This document shows, piece by piece, positions 1,858 through 47,049 of a stretch of 64,000 bases of DNA; position 1 is the stretch's first letter, and each line of letters begins with the position of its first letter. A program made the translations under genes and the position numbers. Origin of the DNA: Cafeteria roenbergensis (Eukaryota; Sar; Bigyra; Bicosoecida; Cafeteriaceae). The notes below the pieces were generated by a model. It was not told the DNA's origin, made no database searches, and was given only the letters and a program-made list of their open reading frames with translations. The stretch is from assembly GCA_008330645.1 (NCBI GenBank), contig VLTN01000048.1, positions 124,001-188,000 of the forward strand, given 5' to 3'.

Positions 1858-4800
1858 ATGATGCCGCTCGGTCGGACCGCAGAACCTGCCAGTGCCGCTG
1901 CGGGCTGCGACGCACCAGTCAAGGAGGCCGCGCTGCCACTGCTGGTGCAGTTGCAGGCCGTAGTCGACAACGCTGCCATGGGCGACGCTGACGCCATCCG
2001 TCGTTTGTGGTCGGCCGAGGCTGCAGAGCGCTTCTCCGCGGCGACGGCCGACGAGGAAGACCACCCCCTGCTGCACGCCGTGCACCGCAACCGCCCGGAC
2101 GCCGTTGCGGCGCTGTGCACGCTGGGCCTGAGCCCGCTGCAGCCCGGCACGCTGCGCCCGTACACCGGTGATGGCTTCTCCGTGTCGGACCTGCGCCGCA
2201 TCACGCCGCTCGAGCTGGTGGAGCGGATGTTGGTGCAGTGCTCGCGTCGCTCAAAGCGTCGCTCGGCGCTGCTCCGCATCCGATCCACCCTGGAGGCGAC
2301 CTTCCAGCAGCAGCAGGCTGCGCACATTGCCCGCATCCAGCAGGAGGAGGGGATGAGCGACGCTGCCATGACGCTCAGCCCGCTGATGGGGGCGTCGGGC
2401 TCGCACTCCGGCGGGGTCCCGCCCCCGCTGGGACGGGGCCGATCCAGGGCCGCGACCGCGCGGTCAGCGGCTGCGGCGGCCGAGGCGGCGGCGGAGGCAG
2501 CGGCGGAGGCTGCAGCCGCTGCGGCGGAAACGCCTGCAGCCTCGGCCGAGGCGGCTTCAGATGCCAAGCCGCCAGCCGCTCACGCCGCAGCAAGCGACCC
2601 GCAGCTGACGGGCACGCCGTCCAAGCTGCTTCCGTCCAGACAGCCCGCCAACCGCTCGGGCGCGGCCGGCTCGCCCGTTCACCGCGTGCTCTCTGCCCAG
2701 CTGGGGCCGGCGGCCACGCCCCCGCACAGCCGCGCGCCCGTCCATGGCGGCAGCTCCAGCACCTCGTCCTCCCCCTCGGTGGGCGGCACGGTGGGCCTGG
2801 CCTCCGTCCCGGGGTCGGGCTCCACTCTGCGAGTCAGCGCTCCCTCGACCGGGGGCAGCGGAGGCGGGCTCTCTGTTGGCAGCGGCGGCGGCGGCGGCGG
2901 CGGAGGAGGAGGAGGAGGCGTTCTCGGGGGGGCACGTGACCGGGCGCTGGCCCGCCGCCGGCTGAGCACAGCGCGGGCGGCGGCGGCCGAGGATGGGCTT
3001 GCCGACGACGGCGGCGAAGGCAATGACGACGACGACGACGACGACGTCGCGTTTGAACCCTCCAAGGCCGACATCGGATCTGCTCTTGCAGCCGCCGCGG
3101 CAGCGCGCGAGGATTCGGCAGGCTCTGCATCGGGGTCCCCATCAGCAGCCGGTCACCGCGACAGCAGCGCCCGTTCGGCAGCCTTCATTCCGCGCCCCGC
3201 TGCCTCGCCCGAGGCGGCGCTTGCAGCCGCAGCGGCCGTCAGGGCCCTAGCCGGGGGCGCGACGGCTGTGGAGGTGGCCGAGGCTGCGGCGGAGGCGGTC
3301 ACCGGCCGCCCCGGACCGAGCTCTGCCCTGGCAGACGCCGGCGATCCCGTATCGTGGGGAGCCCGCCGCCGCCGCAGCCGCAGAGTGGCAGAGCTCGGCA
3401 TGTCGTCTCGGAACGGCGAGGGCGAATCCTCCTCCTCCTCCTCCTCCTCCTCCTCCTCCTCCGCCGCCGCCGCCGCCGCCGGCTCCTCGTCCGTCTCACC
3501 GCCTCGCGACCTGCCCACCCCCGCTGCTGCCGGCGGCGTGTCGCGCTCCAAGCGGCGTCGCGATCCTTCCACCCCTTCGGGGGCTGCCCTTCCGACCCCC
3601 ATGGCGATGGGAGGCGGCCCCCCCGATCAGGCCGGGCCCCGGGCTGTCGCCGCGTCGCGGCCGGCTGTCGGGGACGCGGCCCCAGCCGCCAAGCGTCTCT
3701 GTGCCGACGGGGCGGCCCCCGCGGCGTCGGGAGCAGCCCAAGCAGACGGCGCTGATCCCGCTGCCGTGAGCGCGGCGACGTCGGCGGCTTCGGCAGAGCA
3801 GTACGCGAGCCAGGCCGGAGCCCGTTCGTCCGGCTATGCCGGGGGCGCGGAGGGGGCGACACTGGAGGCGGCGGCGGCAGCGGCAGCGGCGGCGGCTTCA
3901 GCCACAGCGGAGGCAGAGGCGGCCATGGCGGCAGCAGCGCAGGCGCGCGAGCTTCGTCGATCGCAAGCAGCTGCTGCCGCCGCCGCTGCGGAGCAGCGGC
4001 GCCGCGCGGAGCATGCGGCGGCGGCGATGCAGCAGCAGGCGGAGACGTCGGCATCGGCCGCGACGCATGCGGCGGCGGCGGGCCTAGCCAGGGCGGCGGA
4101 GGCCGCGGCGGCCACCTTCCGCGCCTGCCCCGCCGCGAGCCTTGCGCCCCCGCTGACTGCCCTGTGGGTGGGGCAGGGCGTGGCCCCTCCGGCGAGCGTG
4201 GTGACCGCTGCTCGGCTGAACGGCGTGCCCCTGCTGGCGGCGGAACAGCTGCCTCCGGGGGTCGACCCGGTGCTCGCCGCCACGCGCGCCGCGGTCGCTG
4301 CCATTGCGATGCAGAGCCCCCACGCGCTGCTTCGGGCTGTGCGCGCAGCGGCGGAGGCGGCGCAGGCGTCTGGCGAGGCCGCGGCCGCCGCGCAGCGCGG
4401 CGGGGCGGCTGAGCCCGTCGAGGAGGCGGCCCGCCGTGCCGCGGAGGCGGCTCACGCCTTCAGCGTGCAGTGGCCCTCCATCGCCCCGGACGCCACCGGC
4501 GGCGAGGCCGCCGCGTCAACGGCGGCGGCGGTGGTGGCGGTCGCCTGTGGCACTCGCGCCGTGGCAGCCACGCTGGCGGCCTGCACCGGCGCCCCCGCCG
4601 ACCCCACCGCGCTGGTGGACGTGGCCTCCTTGTTCGGGTGGACCGTGTCGGCGCTGGGGGGCTCCCACGCGGCGGGGGAGGCGGCTGTGCGGAGCGTTGA
4701 CGCACGCAAGGCCGAGCTCATGGCTGCCTCAGCGCGCGCTGCGTCGGCGGTCCCCACGGTGAGGAGGGGGTGTGGCGCAGTCGCGAGGGCCAGCATCGCG

Positions 4801-6393
4801 CGGCACGGGGCTGCGCTTGCCACCGCCAGCGCGCTCGCCGCGTCGGCGCCGGACGACGTCTGGGCCTCGGACGGCGACGGGTCGGCGGCGGAGATGCTGT
4901 CGGTGGGCGGCGGCGCCAGCGGCGGCCGAGCCCTCGTCAGAGGGCTCTTCCCGATTCGATGCGCCGTCATCGCCGCTGGGCCCAGCTCTGCCGAGGCGGA
5001 AGAGCACGGCTCTGCCGGCGAGGGCGCCGCCGAGCAACAGGGGGGCGCGCTGGTCGTGGTCCAGTCGCAGCTGCTGCGACTGCGGTCGCTGCGGGGCGCG
5101 CTGCGGGCGCCGGATAGCCGGCTGTGCGCTGTCCCGGACAGGGCGGGCGTCGCAGCCAGCGTGGCGCTGGAGGCGGCGGCGGCGGCAGCGGCATCGGCCC
5201 ATCACTCGGCTGCCCCGGCCTCGTCCGTCGGCGCTGCTGCGGGCCCGGCGTCTGAGGCAGCCATGGTGTCGGCTGCGCGGTCGGCGCTGCTCGGGCCCTC
5301 CGGGCGCGTGTTCGTCCCGGCCCCGTCGGTCATGGACGTGGCCGAGGCGGCGCTGGCGCTGGTGGCGCGCAGGCCCGACACGGGGTCGTGTGTGTCCGTT
5401 GGGCTTCCCGCCTCAGCCGCTTGGCGTCTGACCCGCGCCTGGGCGTCGGAGGCGGTGTCTCTGGACAGCGCAGTGCGGGCGCGCATGGGCCAGTCGCCCA
5501 GGCGGCTGGCGGCCAACACCGGCTCTCGGGGCCAGCTTGTGGCAGAGCCAGCGACAGCCGTGACGCTGGCTTCGTCGCCGCCCGCCGCGGCGGCGGCATC
5601 AGCCGACGGGCAACCGGAGGCCGCGGGCTCGGCGAGGAGCGCCGAGGACGCAGCCGCCTGCCCGCTCGCCTGCGGCCTCCGCCAGTACCCCTCGCTGCGG
5701 GCGCTGGCGCTGGCCGCTGCCTCGTCGGCCGGCTCGCGCATGCCCTCCGCCCCTGTCGCCGCGCTGCTCGTGCTGCGCAGCCCGCAGGCTCTTCGTTCCG
5801 GCCCGTCGTCCGCGGGCGGGCTGGCGCCGGCGATCCGAGCGTGCGCCGAGTTCCTGGCGGCGGCGCTCCGTTGCGTCGCTGTGGGCCCCGAGGGGGCCCT
5901 GGTCGGGGTGGAGCTGCGCGTGGCGGGGCCCCCCATGGGAGCGGCGCGCGTCCTGCGCAGGGCGGCGGACGAGCTGGCCGCCGGCGCGCAGGGCAGAGGG
6001 GCCAGCCAGGCCGCGCGCGCGGCGTCGCAGGCGCTGCTTGCCGAGGCGGCGTCCCTCCGCGGCCGGGCGGACGCCGTGACGCCCGCCGCGGTCGAGGCAG
6101 CGGTGCAGGCGGTGGTCGGCAGCATGGCCGCGGTCACGACCGCCGACGGGGTGCGCCGGCGCGTCACCCTCGTGTCGAGCGCTGCCGTGCTAGCGGCGTC
6201 CTCGCGCGTGCGCGCGGTCGCGTCTCCCTTCGGTCGCGGGGCCGTGATTCGCGAGGCGCCCGCTGCCGTGGTGAGCCTGGCCGGCCTGGAGGCGACCAAG
6301 TCGACCAGCCCCTTCTGCGTTCTCTGCACGCACTCCCCAGCGCCCGGCGTTGCGGGCGACCAGTCGGTCCTGTTCTGGGCGCGCGTGCAGTGA
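1858..6393 (+). CDS. Large Ala/Ser-rich protein with ankyrin-like N-terminus
   Basis: A single uninterrupted frame encodes about 1,511 residues from the ATG at 1858 (1,569 from the alternative ATG at 1684). The first ~130 residues look globular and resemble an ankyrin-type helical pair (GDADAIRRLW, then HPLLHAVHRNRPDAVAALC). A basic helix with a Gln run follows. The middle is low complexity, with Ala runs, a Gly run at 2882-2920, an Asp run near 3030-3050 and a Ser/Ala triplet run at 3427-3480, plus basic patches such as RRRRSRR and KRRR that could be nuclear signals. The C-terminal ~600 residues are Ala-rich but punctuated by conserved-looking Trp, Cys and Phe residues and end in SVLFWARVQ, so a real folded region is possible. 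No family is recognised. The low-complexity tracts resemble those of nuclear scaffold or transcription proteins, but that is a guess. Confidence 0.6.
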   Translation: MMPLGRTAEPASAAAGCDAPVKEAALPLLVQLQAVVDNAAMGDADAIRRLWSAEAAERFSAATADEEDHPLLHAVHRNRPDAVAALCTLGLSPLQPGTLRPYTGDGFSVSDLRRITPLELVERMLVQCSRRSKRRSALLRIRSTLEATFQQQQAAHIARIQQEEGMSDAAMTLSPLMGASGSHSGGVPPPLGRGRSRAATARSAAAAAEAAAEAAAEAAAAAAETPAASAEAASDAKPPAAHAAASDPQLTGTPSKLLPSRQPANRSGAAGSPVHRVLSAQLGPAATPPHSRAPVHGGSSSTSSSPSVGGTVGLASVPGSGSTLRVSAPSTGGSGGGLSVGSGGGGGGGGGGGGVLGGARDRALARRRLSTARAAAAEDGLADDGGEGNDDDDDDDVAFEPSKADIGSALAAAAAAREDSAGSASGSPSAAGHRDSSARSAAFIPRPAASPEAALAAAAAVRALAGGATAVEVAEAAAEAVTGRPGPSSALADAGDPVSWGARRRRSRRVAELGMSSRNGEGESSSSSSSSSSSSAAAAAAGSSSVSPPRDLPTPAAAGGVSRSKRRRDPSTPSGAALPTPMAMGGGPPDQAGPRAVAASRPAVGDAAPAAKRLCADGAAPAASGAAQADGADPAAVSAATSAASAEQYASQAGARSSGYAGGAEGATLEAAAAAAAAAASATAEAEAAMAAAAQARELRRSQAAAAAAAAEQRRRAEHAAAAMQQQAETSASAATHAAAAGLARAAEAAAATFRACPAASLAPPLTALWVGQGVAPPASVVTAARLNGVPLLAAEQLPPGVDPVLAATRAAVAAIAMQSPHALLRAVRAAAEAAQASGEAAAAAQRGGAAEPVEEAARRAAEAAHAFSVQWPSIAPDATGGEAAASTAAAVVAVACGTRAVAATLAACTGAPADPTALVDVASLFGWTVSALGGSHAAGEAAVRSVDARKAELMAASARAASAVPTVRRGCGAVARASIARHGAALATASALAASAPDDVWASDGDGSAAEMLSVGGGASGGRALVRGLFPIRCAVIAAGPSSAEAEEHGSAGEGAAEQQGGALVVVQSQLLRLRSLRGALRAPDSRLCAVPDRAGVAASVALEAAAAAAASAHHSAAPASSVGAAAGPASEAAMVSAARSALLGPSGRVFVPAPSVMDVAEAALALVARRPDTGSCVSVGLPASAAWRLTRAWASEAVSLDSAVRARMGQSPRRLAANTGSRGQLVAEPATAVTLASSPPAAAAASADGQPEAAGSARSAEDAAACPLACGLRQYPSLRALALAAASSAGSRMPSAPVAALLVLRSPQALRSGPSSAGGLAPAIRACAEFLAAALRCVAVGPEGALVGVELRVAGPPMGAARVLRRAADELAAGAQGRGASQAARAASQALLAEAASLRGRADAVTPAAVEAAVQAVVGSMAAVTTADGVRRRVTLVSSAAVLAASSRVRAVASPFGRGAVIREAPAAVVSLAGLEATKSTSPFCVLCTHSPAPGVAGDQSVLFWARVQ
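3427..3480 (+). repeat. TCC/GCC triplet run encoding poly-Ser then poly-Ala
   Basis: Twelve perfect TCC codons (3427-3462) are followed directly by six GCC codons (3463-3480), inside the Ala/Ser-rich gene. The pure codon run suggests slippage expansion, and length may vary between strains. Confidence 0.9.
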
Positions 6394-7067
6394 GCCCGCC
6401 CCCCGCCGCCGCCGCCTTCCCAGCTGTGCAGGACGCCGCGAGAGAGGCGGGCGGTGCCCAGCCGTCCGACGCCGCCGATCGGCCCCGGGCCTGGACGCCG
6501 CGACCGCGTGGAGGAGAGGGGCGGTTCCGGAATATGCCGGTCCACGCGTGCGGCCCCCGCGCGCCTGAACGTGCGCTCCCGCATGAAGCAGGCGGTTGCG
6601 TTGGGGGGGCGCGTGGCCGCAGTGCGCTGTGTGTCCTTGTGTTAAAGAATCTTACTGACGTGCTTTGCGGCCTGCAACTGGCCCGTCGGCACTGCCAGCC
6701 GACCACACCGAACACAGGCGCGACGCGCTCACAAAGCGAGTGTCGCACTTCGTGCGCGCAGCATCGCCGAGGGGGTCGGACTCGCCGCCGCCGGGGGCCG
6801 AGGATGCGTGCGCGCAGCGGCCGAGCCGGGCGCTTCGTCGCCAGGCTGAGCATGGCCACGGGCGGGGCGGGGGCTGCAGCCGCGCCGCCATCGGGCTCGC
6901 CGCTTGCGCCAGGGCGAATGCGCCGCGGCAACTGTTCCTTGCAGAGGCGGCGCCGCTCTGACGAGGGATTGGCAAGAACAGCAGCTGCTGCAGCAGAGCG
7001 GGGCCGAGCGCAAGCGCGAGCTCGCGCCGGCGCCCGCACCTTTCACCCCTGGGTCCGAGCGAGCAGC
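6394..7067. other. Intergenic, 3' flank of large gene and kynureninase upstream region
   Basis: No gene is supported. A relatively AT-rich patch (6644-6660, TTAAAGAATCTTACTGAC) stands out in the GC-rich sequence and could belong to 3'-end or promoter function. The kynureninase frame stays open upstream, but the translation there is Arg/Ala-rich with no similarity to the enzyme. Confidence 0.4.
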
Positions 7068-32979: not shown

Positions 32980-35900
32980 ATGGCGATGTCTGACGCCCCG
33001 ATGCTGCTCGCCTACGGGATGCGAGTCGCGGGCCTGCCGGCGATGGATCGCAACGGCAAGGCCGACCCGTATCTCAAGCTGTCGGTGAGAAGCTGCGCCA
33101 CGCGCTCGCGCGCGAGCTTGTTGCGCCCGGGCAGGCTTGGGGCAAGCAGGGTGAAGGCATGCGCCGCCTGCGGCCACGGTGCGGCGTGCAGTTCCGTCCT
33201 CCCCGGCTTCCCGCGCGCGAAGCGGGCCCCTGGCGAGCGCCTCGAGCAGGGCATCTCGTTCCACGCCCCCGCCCTTTCCGCTTGTGGTCGCAGGCGGGGC
33301 GGGACTCGTTCCGGACCAAGACGAAAAAGGCCACCTTGGAGGCGTCGTGGGACGAGCAGTTTTACTTCGGCAAAAAGGGCCGCAAGGGGGCGATTCTGTC
33401 CGAGGACACCCTTCGAGTGGAAGTGTGGGACGACGACACCATCTTCGACGAGTCTGTTGGGGTGGTCAGCGTGCCTCTGGCCGGTGAGAGCGCGCCCAGC
33501 GTTGCCTCGGCCCGGGCTGGGTCCGCCATCCTCGTGGACAAATCCAAGCTTGTGCGTTGCGCTGCGCCGCCCCCGCCCGCGAGCGCAGACATCCGCAATC
33601 CGGCGGCGCCCACGAAAACGGTCGCGCTCCCCATCATTGGCCCCAAGGGCAAGGAGCGCGGGCAGCTCTTCATGTCGTGAGTCCGGGATGCTGGTCGGGT
33701 CAGCCCACATTGTTGATTTCACAATCCAGCCGAGCCCACGGGTGCCGCGCATGCGACGCTGTGCCTCTTGCTGCGCAGGCTGCTCTTCATGAACCTTCCT
33801 GCGGCCAAGGGCAGCGCGCCGGGCGGGGCGATGGCACCCGCGTCTGCCGGCGCGGCGGCTGCTGCTGGCGCGAGCGCTGCAGGCGGGAGCGGCGCCGCCT
33901 CCGATGCTCCAGCCGCCGCCCCCGCGGCTGCGGGCTCCATCCCCGCGGCGGCAGCCGCGGCTGCTGCCTGCAACACGCTCAAGTTCCGCGTCTTCTCGGC
34001 GCGCGGGCTGCGGCACAAGGCCAAGGCGTACTTGCGCATCAACGCCGCGTCCGGGAACGCGAGCACGACCCCTGGAGCGGAGGCCACCGAGCCCAACTTC
34101 GCGGCCTCCTTCCTTGCGCCTGCGCCCTCCCCCTCGTCGTCCGTGGTGGTGAGCGTGTTCCAGAAGAGCATGTTCCGCGACCGCTTCGTGGGGGCCATCG
34201 CCCTCACCGCCGACCAGTTCGCCGGCGCGCAGCCGCGCAGGCAGTGGTACTCGCTGGGAGACCGCGACGGCGTGGAGGGTGACGGCACGCGCGGCGAGAT
34301 CGAGGTGATGGCGGCGTGGGAGGCCTCCATGAGCCCGGTGGGGGCGCCGGTGCCCTTTGACCCTGCCACCGGCCAGCCCCGCGTGGGCCCGCCGACTGCC
34401 GACGGCCAGATGGGCGAGGTCGTTCCGCCCGAAGCCAAGGCCGAGTCGGAAGAGGAGCGGGCGGCCCGGGAGGCCGAGGAGCGGCGCCACAGCGCCATGA
34501 TGCGAGGCATGTCGCTTCGCCGGGGCGACTACAAGGTGATGGTCCACATCCACGAAGTGCGCCAGCTCAAGGACGAGGACCTCAACGCGTCTGTCGACCC
34601 TTGCGTGCGCGTGGAGGTGCTGGGCAAGCGCCAGCAGACCAAGACGGCGTGGATGACCAACGCGGTGGTGTTTGACCACCTAATGTACTTCTCGTTCGAG
34701 GACCTCTCGCCGGAGCAGCTGGAGCGCGGGAGCGTGACCATCCGCGTGATGGACGTGGACCGCTTCTCCCGCGACGACCTCGTCGGGCAGCACGTGCTGG
34801 ACCTGCCGTTCGTCTATTTTCGGGAGCACCACGAGCTGCACGGCCGCTGGCTGGGCATCACGGACCCCACGCACAAGCGGAAGAAGGGCCTCATGGGCTA
34901 CGTCAAGGTCAGCGTGGCGGTGCTCGGGCCGGGGGACCGGCGGCACCTGTGGGACGCGGCCGAGGAGGCGCGGCTGGAGGCCGCGGAGCGGGCGCACGGG
35001 CTCGAGTCCGTTGTGATGATGCCCCCCTCCATCGATCGCAAGGTCGAGTTCCTCGTGGTGACGGCGCACCGAGCGGAGGACCTCATGCCCATGGACAAGC
35101 CGCAGGTCGGCGGGCTGGTCAAGGGCGGCATCGACGCGTATGTGCAAGTGGACTTTGCCGGCAACCCGTCCGCCCGCACGCCCTGGGTGGCGCGCAAGGG
35201 GAAGCATGACACCGCGCTCAACGTGTCGTGGACGAGCAAGAACCAGCTGTGGATCCCGGTGATGGTCCCAACCATGACCACGGGCGTGCGCGTGGCCGTC
35301 ATGGACTACGACATGGCCTCGTCCGACGACCTGGTCGGCACGGCCCACCTCAACTTCCGCGCCCTGCGCTCCAAGCCCGTGCACAGGCGCTGGTTCAACC
35401 TCTACGGCGGCCCGGAGGGCATCTACGGCCAGGAGGCGGAGGCGATGGCCGAGTTCCCAGCGGCCGCCTCGCACTTCCGGGGCCGCGTCCTCCTCAGCGC
35501 CGAGGTGGTGCGGCACCCGCGCCCCGACGAGGTGGAGCACGTGCACGTCAAGACGGCGTCGACACCCGTCTTCCTGGACCCTTCCTACGCGCCAGCCAGC
35601 CACGCAGCGGGCTCCGACCTAGCCGGCGACGACGATGACGACGAAGCCGTGAGCCCCCCGCCCGACGCTGGCGCGGCGGTCGTGGACGGTGCCCACCCCC
35701 TCGACCCGCCCACCCGCGAGTACACGCTCCGGGCGCTGGTGCTGAGCGGCGTGGACATCCCTGCCAAGTTCAACCCCATTTCGCGCACGCTGGGGCTGGG
35801 CAAGGGCCACGAGATGGCCGTTGAGATCGAGGTGGGCGGCACCGTGCTCTCCACCGAAGCGAACCGCGTCACCGCCGGCGCTGTCTGGTGGGGCAAGCAG

Positions 35901-37584
35901 CTCTCCGCCAGGGTGAGGCTCCCAGCCGACCCTGCCCAAGTTCCCGACGTGTTCCTCTACCTGCGCCGAGGCAAAGCCGGCCCCCGCGTCTGCTTCGCCC
36001 GGTGGAGCGGCGAGGAGCTCGCCCAGGAGGAGGACGCCTTCGACGCCACTGCCAACCCGTGCGAGTGGGTGCCCCTGCAGGAGGACGTGGCCCTCGACGC
36101 CCTGGCCGACAACCAGCAGCCCGGCGCGGTGCTCTGCCGCCTCGCCCTCGCGCCGTCGGAGTTCGAGACCGTGGACGAGACCTGGGAGGACGACCTGGCC
36201 AGGGCCTCCGCCAAGGGCGCCTTCGAGCTCCGGGTGCACGTGTACCAGGCGCGAAACCTGCCGGCCGCAGACTCCATTGGCTCAGCCGACCCGTACGTTC
36301 GGGTGCAGGTCGACGGGCAGGTGATGGAGACGCGGTACAAGGAGGCCACGGTTTCGCCGCTCTTCTACGAGACGCTGCGCTTTCGCGGCCTGGCTCTGCC
36401 ACTGGAGCGCGAGTTCCGGCCGCCCGTGACGCTGCAGGTGTTCGACCGGGACCGCTTCACCAGCGACGACTTCATCTCCGAGCTTCGCATGCCCCTGAGC
36501 GACCCGCGGGTGCTGGTGCACCCGTTCCGTCAGGACGGCTCCGTGTCCCTGCCGGCGACGCTCAAGGACCCCGAGTGGTTCCCGCTCACAGCCCTGGGCC
36601 GGGAGGACGACGGGCCACAGGGGGAGCTGCTGCTGTCGCTGGAGCTGGTTCACTACGACGACATCGCGCCGGGAGCCGTGCCGGCTGTGCAGGCGCCGCG
36701 CCCCGCCTCCATCGTGCCGGAGATGGACGACTGGCACGTGGAGGTGCTCTGCCTCGGCATGCGCTCCATGCAGCCCTACATGGGGCTCCCCATCGCAAAC
36801 CCGCGGGTGGACATGGACCTGGGTGACAGGTCCAAGGCCGAGGCGGTCAAGCGCACGTCGCACTCCAACTTCCCGTCGGGGTCCGACCCGAACTTCTGCC
36901 AGCGCATCCTCATCCCGTGCCGCCTCCCCCGCCGGGAGATCTTTGCGCCGGCACTCAACCTCTCGGTGGTGGATCGCCGCCTGGGCGGATTCCTGGAGCC
37001 GGTGGTCGGCACCGCCACCGTGCCGCTCGTGGACAAGATCCCGGGCACGCCCTCCTACCGCCCTCCCTTTGGCAGCCTCCAGACGGAGAACCTCCACTAC
37101 CGCGACATGTCCCAGACCGAGCGCGCGAACCCCCCCATCTTCCCAAAGTCCGCCCGCCAGGGGCCTGGCAAGGCCCGCGCCGGCCGCCGGCGCGTCGCCA
37201 CGGTCAAGCCCAACGTCCAGTACCGCGCGGGCGCGGAGGAGGAGGACATGCAGATCGAGCTCGACGGCGTGCCCATCGACCTGTCAGCCGGCGAGCCGGA
37301 CCACGACGGCGCGGCCGCCGCAGCCAGCGCGGGCGGCGGCGACACGGCGACCTCGAGCCCGGACCTCTCGCCGTCCGCCCCGCGCCGCCATCGCCGCCGT
37401 CGGAAGCTGCAGGCACCGGAGTCGCACTCCGCATCCGCGGGAGCCGTGCACGCGGCGGCAGCGCAGCAGCTGGCGCAGGCGGAGGCCGCTGCCGGGTCGG
37501 GCCAGCTGACAGCCGCAGTCGCCGGGGAGGCCGCGCGTCGCGCCAAGCTCGAGTCTACCGCGGTGTCAAGGTCGGCGGATGGGC

Positions 37585-37617
<33 letters not shown>

Positions 37618-40600
37618 CAGTGGCTGCCGGGGCCGGCGGGCCGGGTCCAGTGCTGGCCGAGGAGGAGGCGGTGGGGAGCTCCTCTGCCGGAGGTGGCGTA
37701 TCCGTTGGGGCCCTGGACCTGCCTGCGGGTGCGGAGCTGGACATTGGCGCGTCTCCGCTTCTGTCCCTCGGAGCGGCATCGGCGGGAGCGCATTCCGGCA
37801 TCGCGGCCGCCAGGGCCGCCGCCCAGGTGGCTTTGGAAGCCGAGCAGCAGGCAATCGCGCGGCGGGGCGGCGCCGCAGGCAGCATTCTCGTGTCCAACGC
37901 TGACAACGGATCGGTCAGGGGCGTGGCTGCCAGCGCCGGCGGAGCTGCCGCGGAGCTGGCGGCTGCTGCGGCGGGCGTGGACGTCAGCTTCCTCGACCGG
38001 CACATGCGCTACGCCGACGGGGCCGTGACCGCCGACGGGGAGCCGCGGTTCCACGCCGAGGACAAGGCCGCCAGGTACATGTCCGGCCGCCGCGTGTACA
38101 GCGCGGGGCTGGAGGAGGCGCTCCAGACGGCTCCGTTCGAGACCATCGACGTGATGCGGGGCCAGGACGTGGGCCGCGGGCACATCTTCGGGTGGCGCCT
38201 GCCCTCCACGCTGAGGCGCGTGGGCGTGTTCAAGGGCATCGTGCGGGTTGTCAAGGACCCGGACGCCGAGCCCGAGGCGGGCTGGGCCAAGATCCTGGAG
38301 CCCAAGGAGTACGAGGTGCGCGCCTACGTTCTGCAGGGGTACGGCATGCGGCCGATGGACCGCAACAGGCGCTCGGACTGCTACCTGGTGGGCAAGCTGG
38401 GCGACCAGCGCGTGTCCTTCCGGGACAGCTACCACCCGCGGAGCATCGACCCGCCGCTCTACAAGGTGGTGACGTTCAAGACCGTGCTGCCCGGCCCCTC
38501 CCGCCTGGACCTGTCGGTGTGGGACTTTGACTCAGTGTCCTTTGACGACTTCATCGGCCGCACGGAGATCGACCTCGAGGACCGGTGGTTCGACCCGCGC
38601 TGGCAGGCGCTCGGGAGGGGCTTCGAGAGCCGCGGCCGCCTCCCGCCCAAGCCGCTGGAGGAGCGCCGCCTCTTCTCGCCGGACCGCTGGGAGAGCACTG
38701 GCGCGCTGCAGGTGTGGGTGGACGTGCTGGACCCCGCCACGGCCAGGGACCACCCGGCCGTGGACATCGAGCCCCCGCCACCCCGCGACTTCGAGTGCCG
38801 CGTGGTGATCTGGCGCACCTGGGGCGTGCCTGCTCACGACTACTTCACCGACATGAACGACCTCTACGTCAGGGGCTGGCTGGAGGGAAGCCGGGCCCAG
38901 TCGACCGACGTCCACCTGCGCTGCAAGAAGGGCCGCGGCAGCTTCAACTGGCGCATGGTGTTCAAGACGACGGTGCCGTGCAAGGCGCCCATTCTGCACC
39001 TGCAGATGTGGGACCGGGACTACCTGGAGGTGTCCGACCTCATTGCCCAGGCGGAGCTGCAGCTGGACCAGCACTTCGAGGCGGCGCGGCACTGCAACGG
39101 CCGCTACATGGTCATGGACCGCATTCGCAGCGCCTTCGAGGGCACCGACGCGCTCACCGGCGCGACTGGCAGCCGCCTGCACGGGATGGCCGTGCCGGGG
39201 GCAGCGAGCAAGAAGCCCCGCGCGGCTCGCCCGCGCTACGGGGGCGCGGAGTCGGCCCCGCTGCTGGGGGGGGGCCGGGGCCTGGAGGCCGTCGAGGAGG
39301 AGGATGACGACGACGACGAGCAGGTGGAGGTCGAGGACGGCTTCGGCCCCCTTGACGGCTCTGGACATGGCGCGACGGACGGCGACGACGCTTCCGGGCC
39401 CGGCGGTGCGGACGAGGTGAGCGTTCCGGCGGTGACCGCCGCAGTGATCGCGGCCGAGCTGCGCCAGGCCCACGCCGCCGCGCAGCGCAGGGAAGCCGCT
39501 CGCGCCGCCTCAGCGCCCAACACGGCCGGAGGGCGCCAGCAGCTCCGGGCACAGGCGGAGCAACGCCGGGCAGCGGCGCAGGCGGCGGCGCAGGCGGAGT
39601 TTGCTGCTGCCGACAGCGACGGCGACGATCCCACGGGCGACGACACCACGGGCGGCGCGGCAGGCGGACAGGGCAAGGGCGACGCCGCCTCGCTCCTCGC
39701 GCGGGCCACGACGGAGGCCGAGACCAAGGCGGAGGCCGACGCGGCCCGCTCCACCGTCCAGCAGGCGAAGGAGGCCGTCGGGGTGCCCATCCACCCGCAC
39801 GCCGACAACGCCGCCTGGCTGCCGCTCTACCGCCACTACGGCAAGGACGACGACGGGAACAAGGTCATGCTCGACACCCCCATGTACATGGGCAAGGTTC
39901 TGGTGTCGGTGGAGCTCGTTCCAGTCGAAGTGGCGGAGTCCTTCCCGGTGGGGCTGGGCCGCGCGGCGCCCAACGAGCACCCGCACCTGCCCCCGCCGGC
40001 CGGCCGCATGCGCTTCTCCCTGAACCCCTTCTACCTCGGTCGGGAGTGCCTCGGCCCGCGCATCTTCGGCAACTGCCTGCTCTGCCTCTGCCTGGTGGGC
40101 GTGGTCCTGGCGGTGTTCTTCGGCGCCCCGTTCATCCAAACGCTGGCCACCATCGTGAACTCGCTGGGGGACCCGCTCGGGGGGATCATCACCGCCCTCG
40201 TCGTGCTCGCAATTCTGATTCCAATCGTCTACATTTGCGTCAAATATGTCTGGTGTCCCGAGGGCGTGGGCATCTTGCAGGAGACGGCCTCGGACAACCA
40301 CACGTACCTTGACCTCATGCAGGTTCAGAGCGCAAAGGCCGACGCCAAGGCCCTCGGGTTCGGCAGGGGCGTCGCCGCAGCGCCAAAGAGGCCCTCAATG
40401 GCGCAGTCCCAGCAGCACGGCTCAGCAGCCGCAGCCGCGGGGGTGTCGCACGCCAGCGACAAGCCTGCTCTGTCGATCGCCACCCCGGGTCCCGGCAGAG
40501 CCGTGTCCGGTGCTGCCGCATCTGCGGCGGCGGCCCGGCCCGTGCCGGGCGCGCGTGCCAACCCCACCGGAGCTGGAGCGGCGGCGGCTGGCGACGCCAA

Positions 40601-40811
40601 GGCTGCCTCTGCGAGCGGCGGACCTGCGCTGACCCCAGCGGCACGGGCAGCCATGGCCTCCCGCGGATCCAAGGCCCCGTATCCTGGCGTCAAGCACGTG
40701 ACCAACCCTGCTGGAGGCGTGAGCGCGAGCGGTGACACCGCCAGAATGGCCGGCCGGCGCAAGGCGCTGGCGTCTGCGAGTGCGCCCCAAGTTCCCTCGG
40801 CCGAGGAGTGA
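32980..40811 (+). CDS. Ferlin-family multi-C2 membrane protein
   Basis: Three exons (32980-33084, 33294-33676, 33779-40811) give 2,506 residues. Ferlins are tail-anchored C2 proteins that act in Ca2+-regulated membrane fusion and repair. C2-like domains start near residues 8, 227, 414, 584, 811, 977, 1146, 1674 and 1834. The first (RNGKADPY, VWDDDTIFDE), third (VMDVDRFSRDD), fourth (VMDYDMASSDD) and sixth (DSIGSADPY, VFDRDRFTSDD) retain Asp clusters for Ca2+. The last two match the ferlin C-terminal pair (FECRVVIW...YVRGW; NWRMVFKTTVP; WDRDYLEVSDL). Between residues ~1250 and 1640 and around 1960-2150 the chain is low complexity. A ferlin-like RFSLNPF segment precedes two hydrophobic helices (about 2257-2278 and 2297-2320) and a ~180-residue disordered tail. 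No DysF or FerA domain was recognised by eye. The first intron interrupts C2 number one. Confidence 0.93.
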
Positions 40812-44011: not shown

Positions 44012-47000
44012 ATGGACCCAGACGAGGCGCTGCGACTTGCAATTGAAGCTTCCCTCGAGAACGCTGGCGCGCCTGCCGAGGCGCCCAATGCGCTTCCAGC
44101 GCAAGATGCCCGCGTCGAAGCACGCGAAGCCGACGACTTTGACGACGAGCTCACCCGCGCCATTCGCGCGTCCATGGGGGAGGCAGCCGCCAGCACAATG
44201 TTCGTTCAGCCTGCAGCGGTGGCCGCGCCGTCAGCCGCCGCCACCGCCGCCGCTGCCGCTGCCGCTGCCGCTGCGCCGGAACGACCAGGGGGCAGCGCAC
44301 AGGCGCTGGTGCGGACTCCCAGCGCTATAGGCTCGGCCTGCGCCGCGGGCTCGCTGCAACGCTGCAGGAGCGACGACGGCGCCGGGTTGGACGGAGGCAC
44401 CTGCGTCGCAGACGAGGAGCGCCGTGCGGACCTCGAGTACGACCACTGCCTCGCCCACAGCATGCAGGCCAACCGGCCCTTCTCCGATCCGGAGTTCGTG
44501 CCGTCCGCAGCCTCGCTGGGCTCCGGAAAGACCACCACAACGATGCGCGTGCGCGCCAGCCCAACCGCCCCCGTGGAGGTCCGAGAGGTCCCGGTCCTCT
44601 GGCTGCGGCCCAAGGAAATCGGGCACCGCGAGCGCGGCGAGAGGGAGTGGACGCTGTCGCACCGCCAGCCCGCGGGCTCGGACGTGGCGCAGGGCACCGA
44701 GGGGGACTGCTGGCTCGTCAGCGCCATGTCGGTGGCCGCGGAGGGGGACGGCCACGTGGCCCACGCCCTGCGCTCTGCCAGCGCCGAGGGGTGCGGCGCG
44801 GTGCAGATCCGCCTCTGTCTGGGGGGGCTCTGGACGGTCGTCACTGTGGACGACCTCATTCCGTGCGACGCACTGTCGCGCCGGCCCATCTTCGCGAGCG
44901 GGAGGGAGCAGCAGCTATGGCCGTGCTTCATCGAAAAGGGTGAGACGCCGCGCAGCAACCGCGCGCTCTGCCCTGGCCGGCCGCTGGCGCCAGCCCCCAC
45001 CATCTGATCCCAAGCCTGACCCCAGGTCCTCCCCCCCCCCCCAACACCCAACACCCAACACCCAACACCCACCCACCGGCTCTCTCTTCTCGCCTCTGCC
45101 AGCCCCTGGCGCTGCGGCCCGCCGTGCGTGCCTGCCGCCCATGCGTCGCTCGCCGCGCCAGTGTGACCCGCCGCGCCAGTGTGACCCGCCGCGCCAGGCC
45201 TCTCCGCTGCTGTTCGTTTGCCACCGCAGCGATTGCCAAGGTCACTGGCAGCTACCGCGCGCTCTCCGGAGGGCAAGTGTCCGAGGGCCTGCGGCTCATG
45301 ACTGGGGCCTCCGTCACAGCGCTGCTCCTGTCGACCAACGAGACGCGGGAGGAGCGGACTCTCCGCCGGGCCGCCGCCTCCAGCCTGGCGGCGCTGGAGC
45401 GCACACTCGCGCATTTCAGCGGCACCAGCATCCGCGTTGTGCTCGGCTCCGGCATGCAGCAAGTGGTCAAGACCGTCAGAGAAGCGGGACTGTCGCTTGA
45501 CCCGGAGAGGGCCAGACCTGCGGGCGGCAGAGCCGCAGCAGAGCCGCGCGCCGACGCGGACCTAACCTGGGCCCGCCTGGCCAGCTGGAAGGACAGCGGG
45601 TGCCTCATGGGGGCGGCCTGCGGGAAGGCGGGCATGGAGTGGGAGGACGAGCGCAAGGCGGTGCGCGACGCGGCGGCGGCGGTCGGGCTGCAGACCGAGC
45701 ACGCGTACTCGGTGCTGGAGCTCACGTCTGTGGGGTCGGACCGGCTGCTGCGGCTTCGCAACCCCTGGGGCCGGGGCGAGTACACGGGCAAGTACGGGAC
45801 AAGCTGGCCCGGCTGGACGCCGGAGCTGCGCTCACAGCTGGGGGCCTTTGAGATGGAGGGGTCTGGCATCTTTTTCATCGAGTTCAACGACTTCCTTCGC
45901 CACTTCGACACGGTCGAGGTCGCTCGCGTGCACAAGGGCTGGTCGACAGCCCGCTCGGCGTCGCTCATGGCAGAGTCGGCGAGAGGCGCCACTGCCGAGG
46001 GAGGCTTCCCCGCGTGGGAGATCGTGTCGCCGGAGGACGGGGACGTGTACCTCACCCTGTGGCAGGCGTCCTCGCGCCTCAGGGGGGGCGGGCGCCTTCG
46101 GGGTCTTGCTCCGGGAGAGTCGCTCCGCCAGCTCCAGGTCGAGGGCGTGATCGGGGACGATGGCCGCCCCTCGGAAGGCCAGGGGCCGGGCTCGCCCACC
46201 CGCTCGAGCGGAGCGTCGGCTGGCGGGGCAGAAGCAGCTAGGGCAGCAGGAGTGACGGCCGGGGCGCCCGGCGTTGCCGTCGGCGGCGACGCCGGACCCG
46301 CTCTGCGGGCCTCCAACTCGGCTGTTCTGGACGAGGCCGGCAGGGTGCTGTCGAGGGACCGCCGCAAGCCCGCCCCGGAGCGCACCGAGCTCGGCATCGC
46401 GGTGTTTGCAGGAGGCAGGGCGAGCTCCGGCTCGGCCTCTGAACCCGTGGGGTCGTATGTCGGGGGCGCGCTGCGGACCCTTCAGGACAGCGTCAACGCC
46501 GACGTCAGCATCACGGCTGGGAGGCGCTACACTGTCGTGCCGCTTGCGATGGCACACATGGCCCGCAAGCAGTGGCAAGAGGCGGTCCTGTCCGTGCAGT
46601 CCCCGTCACCCGTGCGGCTCAGGCGTGTGACACTGTCTGCACGGCGCTTCGCCGAGGCCATCGTGGAGCGCGTCACTGCCCTTGGCATGGCCACGTTCCA
46701 CTCGGCGGGCGACGACGGCGACATCGTGGTGCGAGAGCTGGCCGCTGACAATTGCATGATGCTCGTGCTGGAGAACCGCACCAGCAGCCGTCTGGTCACG
46801 CTCGAGTACACCGTGGGGGCGGAAGGCCTCACTGCCTCGCGGGAGGCTTTCTTCTGCACCGACACCATCCCCCCACAAACTGTGCAGCTGATTCAGGTGC
46901 TCACCGTTGACAGCGCCGGCGGCAGCTACTCGTACAGCGGCTCGCAGGCCATGTCGATTGAGAAGCTCGCTTCCAGGGAGGCTGCGCTCACCAGCGAGGC

Positions 47001-47049
47001 ACACTTTCCCCCCGTGTCGGGAATGCACTCCCCGTTTCCCCTTGTGTGA
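44012..47049 (+). CDS. Calpain-family cysteine protease with N-terminal ubiquitin-interacting motifs
   Basis: Two exons (44012-44939, 45230-47049) give 915 residues. The N-terminus has two sequences fitting the ubiquitin-interacting motif (DEALRLAIEASLE and DDELTRAIRASMGEA), with a weaker third (LEYDHCLAHSMQ near residue 143). An Ala run separates the second from the third. The C2 peptidase core follows with the full triad: Cys233 in EGDCWLVSAMS, His467 in TEHAYSVLEL and Asn487 in RNPWGRGEYTG. PWNGE-like SWPGWTPEL and FIEFNDFLRHF are also present. The exon join restores IEKAIAKVTGSY, matching the family EKAYAKL.GSY. Two beta-sandwich-like C-terminal regions (about 560-680 and 740-880) resemble calpain domain III. 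There are no EF hands. The start at 44012 has a GCCATGG context. It would be a Ca2+-modulated cytosolic protease, perhaps directed to ubiquitinated proteins. Confidence 0.92.
45042..45069 (+). repeat. (CAACACC)4 heptamer array in calpain intron
   Basis: Four perfect 7-base units directly after a C run, inside the 290-base intron 44940-45229. Confidence 0.93.
45153..45197 (+). repeat. 18-bp tandem repeat (2.5 copies) in calpain intron
   Basis: Two perfect copies of CCGCGCCAGTGTGACCCG and a half copy lie 30-75 bases before the splice acceptor. Confidence 0.92.

Follow-up and report, generated by a model that had tools for sequence, protein, structure and literature searches.

Two candidate ubiquitin-interacting motifs precede a SOL/CAPN15-type calpain core in the stramenopile Cafeteria roenbergensis

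In 2025 the calpain CAPN15 was reported to act independently of the proteasome by cutting substrates that carry ubiquitin (PMC12805371). The human protein requires its N-terminal ubiquitin-binding zinc fingers (NZF) for this action; CAPN15 cleaved a polyubiquitin-tagged E-cadherin tail and not the untagged one, and Ca2+ enhanced the cleavage (PMC12805371). The SOL family is defined by a SOL-clade catalytic domain (CysPc), a SOL domain that replaces the C2-like domain III, and N-terminal zinc fingers (PMC5650170, PMC12002525), and its calpains have been grouped from metazoa and choanoflagellates (PMC5650170). A calpain survey over 44 genomes describes UBA-CysPc and PUB-CysPc calpains in Emiliania (PMC3563603). 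Here we describe a calpain gene of Cafeteria roenbergensis whose product carries two stretches resembling ubiquitin-interacting motifs (UIMs) ahead of a SOL/CAPN15-type core. The gene lies in a 64,000-nucleotide stretch (the window; contig C48, positions 124001-188000), and the genome searched comprised 36,303,456 bases in 167 contigs.

The first-pass annotation of the window had claimed an intact calpain core with a Cys-His-Asn triad, and this was borne out after removal of an intron that it did not mention (Table 1). The spliced protein matched Pfam Peptidase_C2 over residues 157-541 (E 5.8e-54). The triad C233, H467 and N487 was intact and was invariant in an alignment of the window protein, CAPN15 and L022, a paralog in the same genome. 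The start ATG, in the context GCCGCCATGG, is the first after an in-frame stop upstream, with no in-frame Met between. Neither domain III (C2L) nor a penta-EF-hand, the classical calpain marks, was among the Pfam matches of the window protein. A SOL-homology region stands where domain III would be, as judged by comparison with CAPN15, and long inserts lie within the core and ahead of this region. An AlphaFold model of the C-terminus had a mean predicted local distance difference test (pLDDT) score of 33.5 and was not used; one sub-threshold Pfam match on the C-terminus was put down to chance.

Comparisons with human CAPN15 used a presumed sequence of it throughout, with a presumed length of 1086 residues. 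Its spacings of 165 residues from Cys to His, 20 from His to Asn and 370 from His to the end fit C552, H717 and N737 (PMC12805371) and a length of 1086. It was the sole SOL sequence from outside this genome in the trees and comparisons. In HMMER comparisons the window core scored 209.9 bits against CAPN15 and 175.8 bits against L022; against CAPN2, CAPN1, CAPN9, CAPN3 and three further calpains of this genome (L020, L021 and L023) it scored 60.6-95.7 bits, 95.7 being that of the best classical calpain. BLAST ranked L022 (180 bits) and CAPN15 (161 bits) ahead of all others (at most 77 bits per piece). The window protein, L022 and CAPN15 formed a clade with support of 86/98 in a 10-row tree and of 92/95 in a 25-row tree that included 16 bacterial sequences. 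These outgroups were 16 of the 28 loci of relatives found in prokaryote contigs. For the larger tree, a calpain profile was run over 17 loci (the 16 prokaryote loci and L025). Length excluded L025 from that tree, as a long branch in the 10-row tree did L023; L024 was in neither tree. Approximately unbiased (AU) tests, for groups named after the tree was seen, rejected placing the window protein and L022 with DEK1-like calpains (p 0.011), placing the two with classical calpains (p 0.005), and placing CAPN15 with the classical group (p 0.018). Two scans of viral contigs, with residues 1-593 and with a three-row alignment, gave no confirmed relatives. Collectively, these sequence comparisons assign the window calpain to the SOL/CAPN15 type in core and C-terminus. 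This assignment, which the first-pass annotation did not see, is the strongest indirect support for a link to ubiquitin. No Cys pair 2-4 residues apart occurs in the whole window protein and no zinc-finger family was among its Pfam matches; because the family definition includes N-terminal zinc fingers, the protein is not a full SOL-family member.

UIMs follow a consensus of an acidic patch, a hydrophobic residue and an Ala-x-x-x-Ser core. Three copies had been claimed in the N-terminal arm, and these elements were present on a predicted helix in two of the three, with Ala10/Ser14 and Ala50/Ser54 at the core positions. By a scoring matrix built from 14 known UIMs, motif 1 scored 14.9 and motif 2 13.0, compared with 4.9 for the next window of the protein and -0.4 for the best window of L022. 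None of 3000 shuffles of residues 1-150 attained the best or the second-best score. Among 88,106 positions in six-frame open reading frames (ORFs) of the window, the two motifs were the only windows scoring at least 13, followed by 8.4 and 8.2; the per-position chance was 1.4e-6 for the score of motif 1 and 3.9e-6 for that of motif 2. A matrix made from nine other UIM windows of this genome gave the motifs 20.7 and 17.7, and the next window 11.4.

For residues 1-166 the Pfam UIM profile (PF02809) gave 20.2 bits (E 5e-4, best stretch 4-16); the exon-1 frame yielded 17.7 bits and the whole protein 14.8 bits, and UIM_2 matched residues 44-57 with 14.6 bits. In scans of short pieces motif 1 scored 15.7 bits, and motifs 2 and 3 gave no match. 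At E <= 10 the UIM profile matched at most one of the 96 ORFs of 150 aa or more in the window, namely the exon-1 frame, because only C2 and Peptidase_C2 had more than one member among the 25 of 72 families listed by member number. AlphaFold, run on residues 1-160 alone, modelled helices at 3-18 and 30-59 within a low-confidence arm (pLDDT by ten-residue block: 84 and 73 in the first helix; 50, 68, 85 and 64 across residues 21-60). These predicted helices lend the motifs weak support, since Ala-rich stretches readily model as helix. The first two copies thus hold up as real UIM-like matches by Pfam, matrix and shuffles. The third was ruled out by its matrix score of -0.6, which is at background (chance ~0.002 per position). 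It directly precedes FSDPEF, the start of the calpain core; what follows the motif, FSDPEFVPSAASLG, opens the core common to L022 and CAPN15.

Several observations weigh against a UIM-guided calpain. Both motifs sit at the weak end of the range of real UIMs: when the 14 known UIMs were left out one at a time, 12 scored at least 21 and the remaining two 14.6 and 10.2, and the nine other UIM windows of this genome scored 15.6-24.3. All three Pfam UIM scores of the window protein fall below the curated cut-off of 21 bits. In a genome-wide UIM search, differently scored, 2 of 10 matches exceeded the cut-off, at 24.8 and 24.4 bits; its ten scored candidates did not include the window gene. L022, with its related core, shows neither UIMs nor a zinc-finger reader, so the UIM module is not fixed. 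Horizontal transfer of the SOL core from an animal relative is also possible. The profile search of the N-terminus stayed below threshold, but so did all of the eight other UIM frames of this genome that were scanned in the same way. These frames surrounded the best UIM matches in the genome, and three were truncated by the limits of their 3-kb loci. UIM was listed for six of the eight (13.9-20.2 bits); L008 had UIM_2 alone (16.1 bits) next to a RING finger, and L004 had no match.

It is unlikely, in our view, that both motifs have no binding partner and arose by chance in a disordered arm rich in Ala and acidic residues. The sub-threshold Pfam scores, the Ala-rich N-terminus and a paralog without the motifs would be consistent with such an origin, which the failure of all shuffles to attain either motif score, the low per-position chances and the lack of any other window of at least 13 argue against. 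The best reading, which we consider probable though far from secure, is that of a SOL-type calpain which its UIMs guide to ubiquitinated proteins and which makes limited cuts in them. The proposal of a Ca2+ protease that selects ubiquitinated substrates is retained as the best-supported reading, with two UIMs on a SOL-type core in place of three. A mostly disordered N-terminal arm would present two UIM helices ~25 residues apart, which may bind ubiquitin on substrates and so keep the substrate near the protease core. Upon a rise in Ca2+ the core would make a limited cut, and the SOL-homology region probably contributes to the selection of substrates or partners. We infer ubiquitin binding along these lines, and ubiquitin-dependent cleavage and Ca2+ control by analogy with CAPN15 (PMC12805371). 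The putative UIMs occupy the place matching the ubiquitin-binding zinc fingers of published SOL calpains. Two unrelated ubiquitin readers on one core type would be expected if ubiquitin targeting matters for that core.

The UIMs could also act on the enzyme itself. Coupled monoubiquitination is known for endocytic UIM proteins, and two UIMs in a flexible arm might recruit the ubiquitin machinery, leaving the calpain monoubiquitinated and held inactive or relocated. The SOL-type core points instead to substrate reading as in CAPN15, and we saw no sign of enzyme modification; we rate this reading slightly below a chance origin of the motifs. Least probable of all is that the UIM-like helices dock onto a different partner and thereby bring the calpain to autophagic membranes. 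One such partner would be Atg8, which in plants and yeast has a known UIM-docking site. The low standing of the motifs among UIMs speaks for this reading, and their Ala-Ser core would suit Atg8 or ubiquitin alike, but their match in position to the ubiquitin-binding zinc fingers of CAPN15 favours ubiquitin.

Table 1. Features of the calpain gene, in positions of the window.
Feature	Coordinates	Strand	Remarks
Whole calpain gene	44012..47049	+	Two exons, 44012-44939 and 45230-47049; 915 residues
Candidate UIM 1	44015..44062	+	Residues 2-17, DPDEALRLAIEASLEN
Candidate UIM 2	44135..44185	+	Residues 42-58, DFDDELTRAIRASMGEA
Claimed third motif	44426..44470	+	Residues 139-153; by score not a UIM
CysPc, first part	44480..44939	+	Bears catalytic C233
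Intron	44940..45229	+	GT-AG, 290 bases; inferred from frame and calpain similarity on either side
CysPc, second part	45230..45924	+	Bears H467 and N487
Post-core region	45934..47046	+	Clearest SOL-homology match to CAPN15 begins at residue 697 (46390) and runs to the end

The window has a G+C content of 60-79% per 2 kb. Upstream of the calpain, at 33789-40811 on the + strand, lies a 2340-aa multi-C2 frame that is ferlin-like by reading; C2 and FerI were among the matches of the window ORFs, FerI not being tied to any given ORF.

Elsewhere in the genome, L022 (G000:C60:107500-117400, frame 3473-6727, + strand) encodes a SOL-type sister calpain with an intact triad. It had no UIM match, and its first 240 residues lack a close Cys pair. 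Repeated acidic-Trp patches in the N-terminus (GWGGGWGDL, DSGWGWSSD, DRDGWEGPS) may bind another partner. No UIM was found among the Pfam matches (E <= 10 or <= 1) of L020, L021, L022, L023, L025 and one L024 frame. L020 (C71) and L021 (C88) are close copies of a large calpain, presumably DEK1-like, with Calpain_III and with hydrophobic stretches ahead of the core. A DEK1-type calpain has been reported in Cafeteria roenbergensis (PMC10762896). L024 (C34) and L025 (C31) are calpain-like, with the catalytic Cys replaced by Asn in LLQDNWFL and by Arg in LLGDRYFL, respectively, and are probably inactive as proteases. Among the UIM genes, L008 (C35:133021-136065, minus strand) has a RING-finger frame with two UIM-like windows after it and is likely a ubiquitin ligase, and L005 has a PUB match joined to a UIM.

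N-terminal UIMs are not known from any common calpain architecture. No UIM-calpain fusion appeared among the literature matches listed, by title and start of abstract, with subscription papers and eukaryote protein databases mostly beyond reach, and the term 'UIM' is absent from the main text of PMC3563603, PMC13413365, PMC10762896, PMC4631099 and PMC12805371. The claim is tempered by the ubiquitin-linked calpains already described, namely the NZF-bearing CAPN15/SOL type (PMC12805371) and UBA-CysPc of Emiliania (PMC3563603). The idea of a ubiquitin-guided calpain is thus known; the UIM module and the lineage appear unreported, provisionally. We tentatively suggest, at somewhat less than even odds, that ubiquitin-directed cutting by SOL-type calpains predates animals and choanoflagellates and that the reader is swappable: core and SOL region would be shared, with zinc fingers as the reader in animals and UIMs in this stramenopile. 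If so, ubiquitin-guided calpain cutting would not be solely an animal invention. With a different ubiquitin module at the corresponding site of a distant-protist relative, this kind of proteolysis would have to be either ancient or of more than one origin. The essential part, core and SOL region, could then also be told apart from the interchangeable reader, and a compact two-UIM construct would offer a handle for probing the role of the SOL region.

Compared with known systems, the window protein shares its motif style with the UIM frames L008 and L005 of the same genome (Ala before Ser in seven of nine windows), in which no calpain domain was found. Like MIT-CysPc-C2L calpains (CAPN7/PalB) it has an N-terminal adaptor module ahead of CysPc, but those have MIT and C2L domains, and L023, which we take to be this genome's CAPN7-like calpain, is separate and carries Calpain_III. 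With UBA-CysPc and PUB-CysPc of Emiliania it shares the union of a protist calpain and an N-terminal ubiquitin-system module; those have UBA or PUB rather than UIM, and no SOL region is named for them in the sections of the survey consulted (PMC3563603). To CAPN15 and the SOL calpains it is alike in its SOL-type CysPc, intact triad, C-terminus with SOL homology instead of a domain III and, as far as sequence can suggest, N-terminal ubiquitin reader. It differs from them in having two UIMs and no zinc finger, in the long inserts in its core and before the SOL region, and in its stramenopile rather than metazoan or choanoflagellate host.
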